A stretch of DNA of 64,000 nt from Dendronalium phyllosphericum CENA369. Lineage in GTDB: Bacteria; Cyanobacteriota; Cyanobacteriia; Cyanobacteriales; Nostocaceae. This document shows, piece after piece, positions 6,776-13,338 of the stretch; position 1 is the stretch's first letter, and the number at the start of each line of letters is the position of its first letter. Both the position numbers and the translations under genes were made by a program. The notes under the pieces are model-generated. The model searched no databases and was not told the origin of the DNA. It saw only the letters and a list, made by a program, of their open reading frames with translations. The stretch lies in assembly GCF_016056275.1 (NCBI RefSeq), contig NZ_JAECZA010000006.1, positions 1 through 64,000 of the forward strand, in the 5' to 3' direction.

Positions 6776-6879
6776 AAATTTCAACTTAGTTATCTCAAAT
6801 CCGCACTATGTAAAGTGGCGGTTACAAAACTCATTTAATTTTGACATCTTCCTGGTCAAGTTGCTGTTTGTCAGTTGTC

Positions 6880-6907
6880 GTAGAGACGCGATTAATCGCG
6901 TCTGTAC
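6880..6907. repeat. Palindromic intergenic repeat (GACGCGATTAATCGCGTC core)
   Basis: A near-perfect palindrome with core GACGCGATTAATCGCGTC flanked by GTAGA and TGTAC. Related copies lie at 18171-18196, 56510-56554 and 57680-57724. Such palindromes can form stable RNA hairpins and are probably a dispersed non-coding repeat family. Confidence 0.85.
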
Positions 6908-6968
6908 AAGAGTCAGTTGTCAGAAGGAGGAGAACAAAAAGACGCGCTAACTCTAACACTCTTCAGCA

Positions 6969-7073
6969 GAGTTCAAAGACTCGTCCGCGAGTATCAAAGA
7001 CTCTTTAAAGGAGTTCAAAGACTGATTCACGAGTATCAAAGGCTCGTTCGCGAATATTAAAGACTCTTTAGAA
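6969..7073. repeat. 21-bp tandem array
   Basis: About five imperfect 21-bp units of the form CAAAGACTCGTCCGCGAGTAT. Read on the plus strand in one frame they give heptads QRLVREY, QRLFKGV, QRLIHEY, QRLVREY and then a stop. The array lies in the leader region of the cobalamin operon, about 75 bp before the riboswitch aptamer. Confidence 0.85.
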
Positions 7074-7147
7074 CAAGGAAAGTTAGAAGTTTCCTAATTC
7101 CCCAGTCCCTAATCCCCAATTCCTAATCTATGCTACATTACTAAAGC

Positions 7148-7262
7148 TTGGAGTCGGGAAACTCCGGTGCAATTCCGGGACTGTGCCGCAGCTGTAAGGA
7201 AAAGGCAAAAGGTAAAAATTTAGATTCACTTTTGACTTACCGAGTCAGAATGCCAACTCCAA
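7148..7262 (+). promoter_or_regulatory. Cobalamin (B12) riboswitch aptamer
   Basis: Contains the conserved core GGGAAACTCCGGTGCAATTC, then GGGACTGTGCCGCAGCTGTA and a B12 box (GAGTCAGAATGCC). The outer P1 helix is TTGGAGT (7148-7154) pairing with ACTCCAA (7256-7262). The element is compact, with a short variable region. It precedes cobG, so adenosylcobalamin should repress the cob genes. Expected mode: translational control, because the downstream platform lies next to the ribosome-binding site. Confidence 0.93.
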
Positions 7263-7264
7263 CC

Positions 7265-7316
7265 GTGTCTTTCAGACACATTCACTATCTACTCTCTGCG
7301 TTGCACAGAGAAGGAG
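7265..7316 (+). promoter_or_regulatory. Riboswitch expression platform and cobG ribosome-binding site
   Basis: Two small hairpins follow the aptamer: GTGTCT-TTC-AGACAC (7265-7279) and CTCTG/CAGAG (7294-7310). The strong Shine-Dalgarno AAGGAG (7311-7316) comes directly after the second one and lies 8 bases before an in-frame TTG at 7325. This placement decides the cobG start and suggests that accessibility of the RBS is the regulated step. Confidence 0.65.
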
Positions 7317-7324
7317 TTTCAAAT

Positions 7325-8881
7325 TTGTTGTCCGGTAACGCCTGTCCTGGCTTATTTTACGTCACACCCGCTCAAGATGGTATACTGTCTCGCATCAGAA
7401 TACCAGGCGGGATGCTTAATAGTATGCAGTGCCGTGCGATCGCAGATATAGCCGAACAGTGCGGTGGTGGCTACGTCGATGTGACTAATCGAGCCAATTT
7501 ACAAGTTCGTGAAATTCGCTCCCAGATAAATCCTGTCTTCCTAAAGCACCTGCAAAATTTGGGCTTGGGTTCTCATAATTCAGGTGTAGACCACATCCGT
7601 AATATTATGACCAGCCCCACTGCTGGCATAGATCCTCAAGAATTAATTGACACGCGTCCCTTTGTTCGAGGTTGGGATAATTACATAGCTACACACCCTA
7701 ACTTGGGAGGACTGTCTGCAAAATTTAGCGTTTGCTTTGATGGTGGTGGGTTAGTTTCAGTACGCGATCGCCTCAATGATATCGCGTTTGCTGCTGTTTT
7801 AATTAAAGGTAAAGTTTACTTCCGCCTCTGCCTCAGCGTTGGTGCGAAAGGCGAACCACCCAGCGATATGGGAATTTTATTAACATCTGAGGAATGTTTA
7901 CCAGTTTTAGCTGCTTTAGCTAATATTTATCTAAATCATATTGATACTAGTAGTAAACGCAAGCCGCGTTTGAGAGAGTTATTAAATAGTTTGGGTTGCG
8001 AAAGTTTTCTTCAGGAAGTGGAAGCAAGTCTGCCTTTTTCCCTTTTTTGCAGTGAAACAAGAGAAAACTTAATCCCCCAACTCTCTTTTCTACGAGAGAA
8101 GGAAGAGGAATTTTCTGTTTTTACAAAAGAAGCTTTTGGGGTGAAGTCAAATACTCAGTATCAACACATCGGCATTCATCCGCAACGTCAGCTAGGTTTA
8201 TTTTATATTGGTGTAGTTTTGCCGCTTGGTCGCTTGGAGAGTCAGCAATTGCGAGGTTTGGCTGATTTGGCAGAAAGCTATGGCAGCAGCATTAGGTTAA
8301 CTCCTTGGCAGAATTTACTCTTAACCGATATTCCCCAGCAATGTATTAGCGATGTCGAGAAAAAAATTGCAGTCTTAGGATTAGATTCTTCAACCAGCAA
8401 CATCAAGAGTGCGTTAGTTAGCTGTTCCGGTAAGCGGGGTTGCGCTGCTGCTGCTACCGACACAAAAAGCCATGCATTAGCTTTAGCAAAGTATTTGGAA
8501 ACTCGCGTCAGTTTAGACTGTCCGGTTAATATCCACTTCAGCGGCTGCGACAAATCCTGCGCCCAGCATAGTAAAAGTGACATTACTTTACTAGGTATCA
8601 GTCTGGAAACGGAAAATGGAACTGTGGAAGGCTATCAAGTTTATGTTGGTGACGATGACAGTAATCATAAATTTGGTCGCCAACTCTATAAATATGTCAG
8701 CTTTCTCGAACTGCCTGCACTGTTAGAGCAAATGCTAAACGTGTATAAAAAACAACGATTAAATTCTCACGAATCTTTTGGAGAATTTACCAATCGATAT
8801 GCGTTGGCGCAGCCCGCCGCAGGCATCGCTCAACTCAAACAGTTATTCTCACTATCATATTCCCCACTTGTCGCTTCCTAA
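7325..8881 (+). CDS. cobG: Precorrin-3B synthase CobG
   Basis: About 518 aa from TTG 7325, following AAGGAG. The protein is related to ferredoxin-sulfite/nitrite reductases, with duplicated half-domains. The siroheme/[4Fe-4S] ligands show as CSGKRGC and CDKSC. CobG catalyses the oxygen-dependent ring hydroxylation of precorrin-3A in the aerobic B12 pathway. The N-terminal ACPGLFYVTPAQDG is characteristic. Longer starts (TTG 7148, ATG 7250) fall inside the riboswitch and are rejected. It is followed four bases later by cobH in an operon. An uncharacterised sulfite-reductase relative is the only serious alternative. Confidence 0.9.
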   Translation: MLSGNACPGLFYVTPAQDGILSRIRIPGGMLNSMQCRAIADIAEQCGGGYVDVTNRANLQVREIRSQINPVFLKHLQNLGLGSHNSGVDHIRNIMTSPTAGIDPQELIDTRPFVRGWDNYIATHPNLGGLSAKFSVCFDGGGLVSVRDRLNDIAFAAVLIKGKVYFRLCLSVGAKGEPPSDMGILLTSEECLPVLAALANIYLNHIDTSSKRKPRLRELLNSLGCESFLQEVEASLPFSLFCSETRENLIPQLSFLREKEEEFSVFTKEAFGVKSNTQYQHIGIHPQRQLGLFYIGVVLPLGRLESQQLRGLADLAESYGSSIRLTPWQNLLLTDIPQQCISDVEKKIAVLGLDSSTSNIKSALVSCSGKRGCAAAATDTKSHALALAKYLETRVSLDCPVNIHFSGCDKSCAQHSKSDITLLGISLETENGTVEGYQVYVGDDDSNHKFGRQLYKYVSFLELPALLEQMLNVYKKQRLNSHESFGEFTNRYALAQPAAGIAQLKQLFSLSYSPLVAS

Positions 8882-8885
8882 ACCA

Positions 8886-9512
8886 ATGTCCGATTACATC
8901 AAAGATGCTAATGAAATTTATCGGAATTCCTTTGCTATCATCCGGTCGGAAGCAAACTTAGATGTTCTGCCATGGGATGTAGCGAAAGTTGCTGTAAGAC
9001 TGATACATGCCTGTGGAATGACGGATATTGTTACTGACTTAGGATATTCACCGACAGCAGTGCGATCTGGACGGGCAGCACTGGCAGCAGGAGCGCCGAT
9101 TCTGTGTGATTGCCGGATGGTTGCTGAAGGTGTTACCAGAAAGCGCTTGCCAGCTAACAACCAAGTTATCTGCACCCTCAACGATTCGCAAGTACCAGAA
9201 ATGGCTAAACGTCTTGATACTACAAGGTCTGCGGCTGCCTTGGAATTGTGGCGAATACACCTTGAAGGAGCAGTAGTAGCAATTGGTAATGCACCCACCG
9301 CATTATTCCGGTTGCTGGAAATGCTGGATGAAGGATGTCCGAAACCTGCGGTAATATTGGGCTTTCCGGTAGGATTCGTCGGTGCAGCCGAGTCAAAAGC
9401 AGCACTGGCAGCAGACAGCCGAAATGTCCCATTTTTAACATTACATGGTCGGCGTGGTGGAAGTGCGATCGCTGCTGCCGCAGTTAACGCCTTGGCAACG
9501 GAGGAAGAATGA
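8886..9512 (+). CDS. cobH: Precorrin-8X methylmutase
   Basis: 208-aa CobH/CbiC family enzyme that moves a methyl group from C11 to C12 to give hydrogenobyrinate (or its cobalt form). Motifs include GAPILCDCRMVAEGV, GNAPTALFRLLEM and the glycine-rich C-terminal FLTLHGRRGGSAIAAAA. ATG 8886 gives the standard family length; an upstream in-frame ATG at 8778 lies in the cobG coding region. It is translationally coupled to the next gene by an ATGA overlap. Confidence 0.95.
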   Translation: MSDYIKDANEIYRNSFAIIRSEANLDVLPWDVAKVAVRLIHACGMTDIVTDLGYSPTAVRSGRAALAAGAPILCDCRMVAEGVTRKRLPANNQVICTLNDSQVPEMAKRLDTTRSAAALELWRIHLEGAVVAIGNAPTALFRLLEMLDEGCPKPAVILGFPVGFVGAAESKAALAADSRNVPFLTLHGRRGGSAIAAAAVNALATEEE

Positions 9513-10216
9513 ACGCGAACAAAGGTCGTCTCTATGGAGTTGGTGTCGGGCCGGGCGATCCGGAATTGTTGACCCTGAAAGCACTGCGGCTATTGCGTGC
9601 TGCACCTGTGGTAGCCTATCAATCAGCCACAGATAAAGAGAGTATAGCGCGGGCGATCGTGTCGCAGTATTTGAGCGGCAATCAAATCGAAGTGCAGTTT
9701 CATTTACCCCGCGCCTTAGAGCCAGAAAAGGCACAAGCAATTTACGACAAAGAAGTTGAACCAATTGCCGAACATCTTGCCGCCGGACGAGATGTAGTAG
9801 TTTTGTGTGAGGGCGACCCGTTTTTCTACGGGTCATTCATGTATGTTTTCACACGGCTATCCGAACAGTACGAAACAGAAGTTGTCCCTGGAGTTTCCTC
9901 GCTGATGGCTTGTCCGGTAGCTTTGGGCGTACCCTTCACTTACTACAACGATATTCTTACCGTCTTACCTGCCCCAATGCCAGCAGAAGAATTGACTACA
10001 CAACTGCTGACAACCGATGCAGCTGCAATTATGAAGTTGGGTCGTCATTTTACAAAAGTGCGGGATATCTTGCATCAATTAGGATTGGCATCGCGGGCAT
10101 TGTATATTGAACGGGCAACCATGTCACAGCAGAGAATTGTACCGCTTGATGAGGTTAATCCGGCTGAAGTGCCCTATTTCGCAATGATTGTGATACCGAG
10201 CAAAAATCGGCTGTAA
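9509..10216 (+). CDS. cobI: Precorrin-2 C20-methyltransferase
   Basis: 235-aa SAM-dependent tetrapyrrole methylase (CobI/CbiL). It adds the C20 methyl group to precorrin-2 or its cobalt complex. The N-terminal GVGVGPGDPELLTLKA loop and the CEGDPFFYGSFMY motif are typical, as is VVPGVSSLMA. It starts within cobH (ATGA overlap at 9509), so the two are coupled. It is the last gene under evident riboswitch control before a toxin-antitoxin insertion. CbiL and CobI cannot be told apart from sequence alone. Confidence 0.94.
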   Translation: MNANKGRLYGVGVGPGDPELLTLKALRLLRAAPVVAYQSATDKESIARAIVSQYLSGNQIEVQFHLPRALEPEKAQAIYDKEVEPIAEHLAAGRDVVVLCEGDPFFYGSFMYVFTRLSEQYETEVVPGVSSLMACPVALGVPFTYYNDILTVLPAPMPAEELTTQLLTTDAAAIMKLGRHFTKVRDILHQLGLASRALYIERATMSQQRIVPLDEVNPAEVPYFAMIVIPSKNRL

Positions 10217-10391: not shown

Positions 10392-10979
10392 ATGATCGAC
10401 TGTCTCAATGTGGCTCGCTACTTCATAGTGAGAGCTTACGAGGATGGAATAGAAGCTGAAATGACTAACATGAAGGTGCAAAAGCTTCTTTACTATTCAC
10501 AAAGCTTGCATTTAGCATTATATGATGAGCCATTGTTTGATGAAGTAATCCAAGCATGGCGATATGGCCCTGTGTGTCCTCCTGCTTACAGGTTTTACAG
10601 TGAATTTGAAGCTAAACAGTTACCCATACCCGGTGAGGAATTCTTGTTACAGATTCCGGATGAGAAGAAAAAGCTTTTAGAAGAAATTTGGAGATATTTT
10701 GGTGGCTACCATGCTTATCGACTCAGTGATATGACTCATGTTGAGTTTCCTTGGAAGAAAGCGCGCAAGGGTTTGTCGAGTCACGCAAGTTCAACTGAAA
10801 CAATTCTACTTGAGGATATGAAAGCATTGGGTTATCAGAAGCTTGATGTGATAGAGCGCGATCATCCCGCGTATGAATCCGTCATGTCCAAAATAATAGA
10901 AGATGCTTATAATACAGAATCTTCAAATCGCATTGGCAAAGGAGAGGTGCGTGACTGGCTCAACTCCCTTCTCGATTGA
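10392..10979 (+). CDS. DUF4065 (Panacea) antitoxin-like protein
   Basis: 195-aa protein with the DUF4065/SocA-like domain. The signature is MKVQKLLYYSQSLHLA followed by AWRYGPVCPPAY. This domain was described as the promiscuous PanA antitoxin that is paired with many unrelated toxins. An AT-rich promoter-like spacer lies upstream. The downstream ORF starts 29 bases before this stop codon, the classic arrangement of a toxin-antitoxin operon. The pair interrupts the cobalamin genes between cobI and cobJ. Confidence 0.85.
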   Translation: MIDCLNVARYFIVRAYEDGIEAEMTNMKVQKLLYYSQSLHLALYDEPLFDEVIQAWRYGPVCPPAYRFYSEFEAKQLPIPGEEFLLQIPDEKKKLLEEIWRYFGGYHAYRLSDMTHVEFPWKKARKGLSSHASSTETILLEDMKALGYQKLDVIERDHPAYESVMSKIIEDAYNTESSNRIGKGEVRDWLNSLLD

Positions 10980-11328
10980 AGAATCTGATAATTTCAAGCG
11001 TTCTTTCAAAAAACTTGCAAAGTTTCATGGATCTAGTTTTGTTGAGCTTGTTGCGCAAGTTCTGGAAGATTTGATTGAAGACCAGTATCCTAATAACTCT
11101 CGTAGCGAACCTTTACCTGGAAAGATTCAGTTACCTGAAGAATGGACTTTTCACAAGTTAGAACTTAGAGTATCCAAAGGAGCTTCGGGACAAATCAGGT
11201 TGATGTATTTAGTTAATGCAACTACTTGCACAATCAGATTAGTTTGGATTTACAGTCACGAGCAGTTTACAAAACGCCCTGCTGATGCCGATCTGAACAG
11301 TCTTATTAAAGAAATCTTAGACTACTAG
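10951..11328 (+). CDS. Putative RelE/ParE-like toxin partner of DUF4065 protein
   Basis: 125 aa from GTG 10951, which has GGAGAGG about four bases upstream; a longer in-frame ATG at 10903 lacks this. The sequence begins with the SDNFKRSFKKLAKF pattern common in RelE-superfamily mRNA interferases and ends with strand-like segments (IRLMYLVNATT, IRLVWIYSHEQF). The overlap with the upstream DUF4065 gene supports a toxin role. The fold assignment is from pattern only; the catalytic residues are not clear. Confidence 0.65.
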   Translation: MTGSTPFSIEESDNFKRSFKKLAKFHGSSFVELVAQVLEDLIEDQYPNNSRSEPLPGKIQLPEEWTFHKLELRVSKGASGQIRLMYLVNATTCTIRLVWIYSHEQFTKRPADADLNSLIKEILDY

Positions 11329-11535: not shown

Positions 11536-13338
11536 ATGATGACGAAGATTGCACCCGCCGTTGTGGTATTGGGCCAAAATAGTGTGGCAGTAGCACGCAA
11601 AATGATGAACATTCTACCAGGAGCTACATTATACGGTCTAGCGGGTCGCACGTCTGAAGTCGATATCAGCTATACGAATTTTGGCGAGACACTGCGGGAA
11701 TTATTTGCTGAGGGAACACCATTAATTGGTATTTGTGCTACTGGAATTCTCATTAGAACGCTAGCTCCCATGCTCTCAGATAAACGCCAAGAACCGCCAG
11801 TGTTAGCTGTAGCCGAGGATGGTAGCGCTGTTGTTCCGCTTTTGGGCGGACTCAATGGCGTGAATGATTTGGCGCGTCGCATTGCCGAAGTACTCAATAT
11901 TAAAGCTGCAATCACAACTACGGGGGATATCCGTTTTCGCACAGCGCTGTTGTCTCCTCCCCTTGGATATCATTTAGCTAATCCAGACGATGCGAAGACG
12001 TTTATCTCAGATTTATTAGCTGGAGCGCAAGTGAAGTTAGAAGGAACAGCACCCTGGCTGAGTAATAGCCAATTGCCGATTGACTCCAATGGAGATTTGA
12101 CCATCCAAATTACAGAACGCTTGGTGACTCCTGCACCCAACCGCCTAGTCTATCATCCGGCAACTGTAGCGATCGCCATCACTAACACTGTTGATGTAAC
12201 TTCAGTACAGCAGCTACTTGCTGATGCCGAACTTGCACCTGCATCAGTCGCCGGCATATTTGCACCCCTCAGTGCTGCTGCCAATCCAGCAATTAACGCT
12301 GTTGCTAGCGCCTTGGACGTACCTATCCGCTTCTTTACCTCAAATCAGTTAGAAAGCTTATTATCACAAGGTTATAGCCCCGCCCAAGCAGTTGCGATCG
12401 CCGCTATGCAAGAGGACGCGGGGACGCGGGGACGCGGGGACGCGGTGAATTTGTCGCAAATACTCTCTGCGTCCCCACGTCTCCCCCTCTCCGTGTCTTC
12501 TTCATCCTCCCAAATTGCGATCGCCATTGCCCCCGAACCAATCGACCCCAGCACCATAGGTCAGCCACGCGGACGTTTGGCAATTATCGGCACGGGGCCG
12601 GGTGCATCGCAGTGGATGTCTCCAGAGGTGAGGGAGATTCTGAAGTCAGCGACTGATTTAGTGGGGTATAAAACATACTTAGATTTAGTCGGTTCTCTTG
12701 CTGATGGCAAGCGCAGGCATGAATCTGACAATAGGGAAGAAATTGCACGGGCTAAAGTAGCGCTGGATTTAGCAGCCCAAGGGCGTTATGTAGCGGTAGT
12801 TTCTTCTGGCGACCCCGGTATCTATGCAATGGCGACAGCAGTTTTTGAGGTACTGGATTATCACAATAAACCGGAATGGGACAGTATTGATATTCATGTT
12901 GCACCAGGGATTTCTGCAATGCAAGCGGCGGCAGCGACGATTGGCGCTCCTTTGGGACATGACTTTTGCGCGATTTCCCTGTCTGATATTTTAAAGCCTT
13001 GGTCAATTATCGAACAACGAATTGCGGCGGCTGCTCAAGCTGATTTTGTCATTGCTTTTTACAATCCTGTTTCTAAAGAACGCACTTGGCAGCTAGCGCA
13101 AGCAAGAGATATTTTACTGCGTTACAGAACGGCTGATACTCCGGTGGTGCTGGCACGAAATCTCGGAAGACCGGGGCAAGCGGTTAAAGTAATTACTCTT
13201 AAAGAGTTAGTGCCAGATGTTGCGGATATGCGGACGGTTATTCTTGTTGGTTCGAGGCAAACTCGCACTATTCAGCGCAGCGATGGTAGTATTTCTGTGT
13301 ATACTCCTCGTCGATACACGGAAGATAAAGAGATATAG
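11536..13338 (+). CDS. cobJ: CbiG-CobJ fusion: cobalt-precorrin 5A hydrolase domain plus precorrin-3B C17-methyltransferase
   Basis: 600 aa. Residues about 1-310 match CbiG (core ICATGILIRTLAPML and GLNGVNDLARRIAE; C-terminal CobE-like part with VASALDVPIRFF). From about residue 345 it is a tetrapyrrole methylase (IIGTGPGASQWMSPE, SSGDPGIYAMA, VAPGISAMQAAAA), the ring-contracting CobJ/CbiH enzyme. Such fusions are familiar in cyanobacteria. The linker (about 294-345) is encoded by an inserted palindromic repeat, see 12413-12510. It lies 207 bp after the toxin-antitoxin pair, so it may need its own promoter. Confidence 0.93.
   Translation: MMTKIAPAVVVLGQNSVAVARKMMNILPGATLYGLAGRTSEVDISYTNFGETLRELFAEGTPLIGICATGILIRTLAPMLSDKRQEPPVLAVAEDGSAVVPLLGGLNGVNDLARRIAEVLNIKAAITTTGDIRFRTALLSPPLGYHLANPDDAKTFISDLLAGAQVKLEGTAPWLSNSQLPIDSNGDLTIQITERLVTPAPNRLVYHPATVAIAITNTVDVTSVQQLLADAELAPASVAGIFAPLSAAANPAINAVASALDVPIRFFTSNQLESLLSQGYSPAQAVAIAAMQEDAGTRGRGDAVNLSQILSASPRLPLSVSSSSSQIAIAIAPEPIDPSTIGQPRGRLAIIGTGPGASQWMSPEVREILKSATDLVGYKTYLDLVGSLADGKRRHESDNREEIARAKVALDLAAQGRYVAVVSSGDPGIYAMATAVFEVLDYHNKPEWDSIDIHVAPGISAMQAAAATIGAPLGHDFCAISLSDILKPWSIIEQRIAAAAQADFVIAFYNPVSKERTWQLAQARDILLRYRTADTPVVLARNLGRPGQAVKVITLKELVPDVADMRTVILVGSRQTRTIQRSDGSISVYTPRRYTEDKEI
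12413..12510 (+). repeat. Intergenic-type palindromic repeat inserted in cobJ linker
   Basis: GAGGACGCGGGGACGCGGGG is followed about 40 bases later by its near-complement GCGTCCCCACGTCTCCCC. The same GCGTCCCCGCGTCTCCCC words occur between genes at 5708-5745 and 16905-16957. Here the element keeps the cobJ frame open and encodes a Gly/Arg- and Ser-rich stretch between the CbiG and CobJ domains. Confidence 0.8.

Follow-up and report, generated by a model that had tools for sequence, protein, structure and literature searches.

The cobG gene of Dendronalium phyllosphericum CENA369 raises a question of reading, since the frame of the gene is open from a TTG at 7148 through to the stop at 8881, and the first part of this frame has the appearance of a cobalamin-sensing RNA. 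Is this leader the N-terminus of CobG or an RNA switch, and, if a switch, at which level and in which direction would it act on the gene? The locus was analysed in a window of 64 kb (the whole stretch of DNA studied), which is part of an 8.4 Mb genome in 338 contigs. The protein read from 7325 was searched in 100 genomes (its own and 99 relatives), giving a match at E 1e-60 or better in 57, and the upstream DNA of all 57 cobG loci (own and 56 relatives) was compared.

The answer that we propose, and which we hold with good confidence, is that the leader is a B12-responsive translational switch over cobG, and probably over a cobG-cobH-cobI operon, which would repress through an expression platform hairpin, P13, locked by a contact between loops L5 and L13. 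The features on which the argument is built are the following; the names P1, P2, P3 and P6 are those that we presume to apply to the cobG switch.

7131..7139, + strand: predicted extended -10 promoter element TGCTACATT, from column conservation in 57 loci
7134..7275, + strand: cobalamin riboswitch aptamer (RF00174, 37.7 bits, gathering score 31.5)
7148..7154, + strand: 5' strand of P1, UUGGAGU, read from the sequence; pairs with 7256-7262 and contains the spurious ORF start TTG 7148
7163..7179, + strand: P4 hairpin, 97.3% of cells paired in 37 loci
7184..7188, + strand: L5 loop UGCCG, predicted to kiss L13; GTGCCGCA in 57/57 loci
7243..7254, + strand: B12 box AGUCAGAAUGCC, read from the sequence, with an in-frame ATG at 7250
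7256..7262, + strand: 3' strand of P1, ACUCCAA, read from the sequence; pairs with 7148-7154
7265..7279, + strand: accessory hairpin GUGUC-UUUCA-GACAC, read from the sequence; missing from some relatives
7293..7311, + strand: P13 hairpin of the expression platform, UCUCUG-CGUUGCA-CAGAGA (L13 = 7299-7305), 97.9% of cells paired
7311..7316, + strand: Shine-Dalgarno AAGGAG, its first A within the P13 pairing, from sequence and column conservation
7325..8881, + strand: cobG (precorrin-3B synthase), start TTG 7325, from TIGR02435 (342.4 bits) and the comparative position of the start
8886..9512, + strand: cobH (precorrin-8X methylmutase), which follows cobG in the presumed operon (NF006136, 358.5 bits)
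9509..10216, + strand: cobI (precorrin-2 C20-methyltransferase), whose ATG overlaps the cobH stop (TIGR01467, 219.6 bits)

Identity of the RNA upstream of cobG

The scan of the whole 64 kb window against Rfam returned two matches: one tRNA, and the Cobalamin family RF00174 at 7134-7275 on the plus strand, above its gathering score and with an E-value of 5.5e-06. The cobalamin riboswitch that an earlier note had recognized from the letters is thus recovered by a covariance model, and 7134-7275 is very likely a B12-sensing RNA switch located 5' of a B12-synthesis gene in a cyanobacterium; the B12 cofactor would be the ligand of this predicted aptamer. The core that the same note had placed at 7148-7262 coincides exactly with the extent of a match to RF01689, though this match, with 29.5 bits, stays under the cut-off of 36.5, and because of this score the aptamer is called class-II-like and is left outside RF01689 (AdoCbl-II). 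The feature by which a passage of PMC11260477 words class II, the lack of the P8-P12 extension, is found at the cobG aptamer, as judged by eye in the alignment of relatives. The spacer between P6 and the B12 box is variable in length and is almost missing in relatives such as L021 and L040.

The structure as drawn is paired in 93.8% of cells over 37 of the 57 loci, and 16 pairs carry changes on both sides for 7.0 in shuffles. P1 and P3 are paired in 87.0% of cells, with both-side changes in seven of nine pairs, and P5 and P6 are paired in 100% but invariant, hence only compatible with the structure. The accessory hairpin is less constant: its columns have gaps in 10 or 11 of these 37 loci, and where letters exist its inner four pairs are formed in 90.6% of cells and its outer pair in 66.7%. 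The P13 hairpin (7293-7298 with 7306-7311), examined over the 55 distinct rows of the 57 loci, is demonstrated by its paired changes, of which 11 cells are observed for 3.9 in shuffles; when the helix is slid by -2 columns as a control, 12 both-side cells are counted for the 11 observed, yet only 76.4% of the cells then pair. The minimum-energy fold of 7134-7345, computed on the single strand, does not include P13 (z -0.70).

The loops L5 (UGCCG) and L13 (CG-UU-GCA) are complementary over five possible pairs, present in 97.3% of the cells of the 37 loci and almost invariant, so that covariation of the contact within the cobG loci is uninformative either way, because it hardly varies. Six other cobalamin riboswitches of the same genome have an L5 UCCCG associated with an L13 CGAGGUA (CGAGGCA in L005); L5 and L13 thus change jointly between the cobG group and these six paralogs. 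The two loops would be in kissing contact in solution. Five of the paralogs (L001, L002, L003, L005 and L006) are gathered in 38 kb of contig C225, at 125947-163689, near genes for CbiM, a TonB-dependent receptor, a cobalamin-independent methionine synthase and a ribonucleotide reductase; the sixth, L004, lies on contig C254 at 9015-9240, 5' of DUF1636 and CbiJ/CobK genes.

Proposed promoter and transcript start

When the 57 loci are aligned at the J3/4 motif GGGAAA, a group of conserved columns appears at the 5' border of the aptamer: TG 7131-7132 (86 and 88%), T 7134 (89%), A 7135 (95%), A 7137 (82%) and T 7139 (89%). Upstream of 7128 conservation drops, save for A-rich columns at 7091-7099 which reach up to 65%. 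A consensus scan found no sigma-70 site; the conserved columns suggest an extended -10 element and a transcript start at about 7146, which would make TTG 7148 hardly possible as a start codon. Two kinds of repeat lie farther upstream of this putative promoter: an inverted repeat of 14 nt at 6880-6907, and, at 6952-7056, direct repeats of 42 nt which are imperfect and have spacings of 42 and 21.

The start of CobG and the open leader

The product of the gene belongs to the CobG family, with 342.4 bits for the TIGR02435 cut-off of 234.8 and with cobH and cobI downstream, and its score of 489.3 with the NirA family model NF007126 is below the cut-off of that model, 523. The TIGR02435 alignment begins at residue 64 of the ORF opened at 7148, that is at base 7337, at profile position 3. 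In 52 of the 57 loci, a pattern search found an in-frame start 3' of a GGRG Shine-Dalgarno, with a spacing of 8 nt in 43 of them and between 5 and 9 nt in the remaining nine; the start is TTG in 40, GTG in 10 and ATG in two, and a single position which alternates in this way among the loci behaves as expected of a start codon. These two lines of evidence agree with the earlier placing of the true start at 7325, outside the RNA, and the P1 strands, the AAGGAG and this TTG had all been located to the base. A second in-frame TTG, at 7328, directly follows the TTG 7325-7327. In the 52 loci in which the start could be placed, the 40 UUG codons seem many for a weak start codon, although this count has no genome-wide baseline.

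Could the leader nevertheless be translated, as an N-terminal extension of CobG beginning at TTG 7148 or ATG 7250? As the earlier note had observed, 7148-7262 is open in the cobG frame; five of the 57 loci (the window, L008, together with L012, L015, L016 and L046) are open through P1 for 2.35 expected from shuffles, an excess with a Poisson value of about 0.09, and the stretch from P13 to the Shine-Dalgarno translates in frame into LLPASHGEGV-like letters in many relatives. There is nothing remarkable in the open frame, however, since dinucleotide shuffling of 7148-7324 leaves this frame open in 7.3% of 5000 cases, and the peptide mimics a conserved protein because the distance from the hairpin to the start is mostly fixed, its conservation having the pattern of a hairpin with paired changes. 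In 52 of the 57 loci a stop stands between P1 and the start, in six (L010, L013, L036, L053, L054 and L059) an in-frame stop even stands between the Shine-Dalgarno and the start, and TTG 7148 would be at about the third base of the presumed transcript. We therefore reject the translated leader, an extremely improbable reading, because of the in-frame stops of the relatives and of the boundary of the CobG family at residue 64; chance is the best reading of the open leader, with the residues upstream of 7325 outside CobG. The analyses made yielded no protein evidence upstream of 7325.

The anticipated misplacing of a naive gene call inside the RNA holds for a longest-ORF rule, which opens at TTG 7148, and for that rule only. 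The in-frame ATG 7250, inside the B12 box, could lead an annotator with a preference for ATG to a false start. Among the 15 listed of 35 matches in plasmid records there is no annotated cyanobacterial cobG; the sole cyanobacterium of these 15 is a Kovacikia minuta plasmid which carries no annotation and in which the frame aligned through the leader differs from that of the CPG motif, so that it is uninformative on the start.

Level and sign of the control

The model that we propose is the following. Transcription would begin at about 7146, just 5' of P1. The aptamer, composed of P1, P3-P6 and the B12 box, would bind the B12 cofactor, and L5 would then kiss L13, which would lock P13 against the Shine-Dalgarno and block the loading of the ribosome at UUG 7325. 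In the absence of B12, P13 would not be held and translation would go ahead. The frame open through the aptamer would remain untranslated.

An action at the level of translation had been suggested previously, with the platform hairpins as its agents. The position of the elements agrees with it: no terminator-like site is found in 6780-7420, and the conserved P13, as in an OFF switch, adjoins the Shine-Dalgarno AAGGAG and shares its first A, two observations which together fit translational control. A switch acting on transcription or on the stability of the mRNA, instead of or besides translation initiation, would draw on the alr4027 switch region of Anabaena PCC 7120, whose transcript is about 100-fold higher without cobalt according to a passage of PMC10878165; with no terminator-like site around the cobG switch and with P13 adjoining the Shine-Dalgarno across the whole cobG set, we consider such an action unlikely here.

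On whether P13 would bury the Shine-Dalgarno, and whether B12 would repress, the folding results are mixed or contrary. The GGAG pairs with the flank 5' of P13 by at least three of its four bases in 36 of 46 loci for 28.0 expected from flank shuffles, and the mean pairing probability is 0.57 for 0.62 in the control shuffles; direct pairing of the Shine-Dalgarno is thus not clearly above the controls. Two partners considered for it, ACUC 7291-7294 (an outer helix, 81.4% of cells) and UCU 7288-7290 (70.0%), are not claimed because random shuffled flanks pair about equally well. When P13 is favoured rather than forbidden in local folding of a short stretch, the Shine-Dalgarno loses accessibility in 10 of the 46 loci and gains it in 36; for a longer stretch, these numbers are 20 and 26. 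Local folding gives no support to repression, since favouring P13 mostly raises the accessibility of the Shine-Dalgarno, and the sign of the control consequently rests on precedent and on physiology.

The same numbers speak for an activating switch, in which the P13 held by B12 would displace a local hairpin that would otherwise hide the Shine-Dalgarno; in the window, a register-shifted hairpin folded in isolation (-8.6 kcal/mol) indeed beats the fold constrained to P13 (-7.4), and one activating corrinoid riboswitch has been published, that of A. halodurans cobT (PMC10653944, which also states that all corrinoid riboswitches known earlier repress). Neither the aptamer nor the order of transcription is represented in the folding, however, and a B12 that switches on its own synthesis would make little physiological sense. 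We consequently regard activation as very improbable, and a variant of it, in which the conserved weak UUG start of an activating corrinoid riboswitch would hold basal synthesis low, as an equally long shot. By analogy with the known switches, B12 would repress rather than activate, and the repressing translational switch remains the model that we retain.

Distribution and the presumed cob operon

L5 and P13, searched by pattern, precede cobG in all of the 57 loci. With Rfam, a match of the cobalamin clan over a cut-off is obtained for 24 of the 29 relative cobG loci scanned, the best model being RF00174 in 13, RF01689 in 10 and RF01482 in one; in the other five (L019, L020, L023, L034 and L037) no Rfam match passes a cut-off. 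Of 291 genomes drawn from the class, 273 have a match at E 0.001 or better to R1, a covariance model built from 37 loci. This number cannot be taken for the frequency of cobG switches, because other cobalamin riboswitches match R1 too, the six paralogs doing so with 43-60 bits. The best 30 R1 loci, the window included, all have downstream a CobG-like N-terminus with a CPG or CPS motif, as judged by eye; several of these 30 overlap the earlier set.

The operon that the switch would control is putative. The longest cobH ORF opens at TTG 8778, within the end of cobG; NF006136 aligns from residue 37 of this ORF, a methionine, at profile position 2, which places the start at about 8886 and makes it a second over-extended ORF. 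Between cobI and a CbiG-CobJ fusion, 10392-11328 carries a gene similar to the SocA/Panacea antitoxin and an overlapping ORF of 141 aa for which no Pfam match was found at 1e-5. The fusion itself, at 11536-13338, joins a CbiG-like domain to CobJ (precorrin-3B C17-methyltransferase); the genome possesses CobG as well, which we take to be an enzyme of the oxygen-dependent route.

In conclusion, the cobG switch is real, was correctly read in the earlier note, and is ordinary in kind. What is gained is a correction of the CobG start codon in the cyanobacterial genomes where a longest-ORF call can enter the riboswitch, together with a caution: a conserved RNA can translate into a seemingly conserved peptide. 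The same genome moreover uses two platform designs, one with GAGG in L13 (six switches) and one with the Shine-Dalgarno behind P13 (cobG), and the recurrent UUG start is a small puzzle.

Comparison with known systems

The cobG switch shares with RF00174 the B12 box, the P3-P6 core and the L5/P13 layout, and differs from it in that P1 is followed by P3 with no P2 hairpin in between and in that its P6-B12 box spacer is variable. RF01689 (AdoCbl-II/AdoCbl-variant) has a short aptamer as here and is the best match of the 10 relatives mentioned above, whereas the window itself remains below its cut-off. The six paralogs, like the cobG switch, possess a P13-like hairpin whose loop of 7 bases is complementary to L5; unlike it, they carry a P2 helix in the alignments, and their Shine-Dalgarno-like GAGG is inside L13 when that of cobG is 3' of P13. 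The L5 of cobG, UGCCG, departs from the consensus UCCCG quoted in a passage of PMC10653944.

The same paper describes, for E. coli btuB and for env8HyCbl, a P13 which is stabilised by the kissing loop and in turn promotes the hairpin at the ribosome binding site. The kissing loop of env8HyCbl is bulged, as that proposed at cobG would be; the mechanism of btuB and env8HyCbl was tested, and that of cobG is proposed by analogy with it. The titles and abstracts searched, outside subscription journals, contained no experimentally tested cobG riboswitch. The closest counterpart is the putative cobalamin riboswitch 5' of all0456 in Anabaena sp. PCC 7120, which the relevant passage of PMC10878165 gives as a prediction, its importance being left to experiment. 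There all0456 is the first gene of a B12-synthesis cluster, and the legend of the figure mentions precorrin isomerase, precorrin-2 methylase and precorrin-3 methylase genes in the clusters drawn. Both switches stand 5' of the first gene of a B12 cluster; the cobG element described here is very likely the ortholog of the all0456 element, and all0456 would be the cobG of Anabaena.
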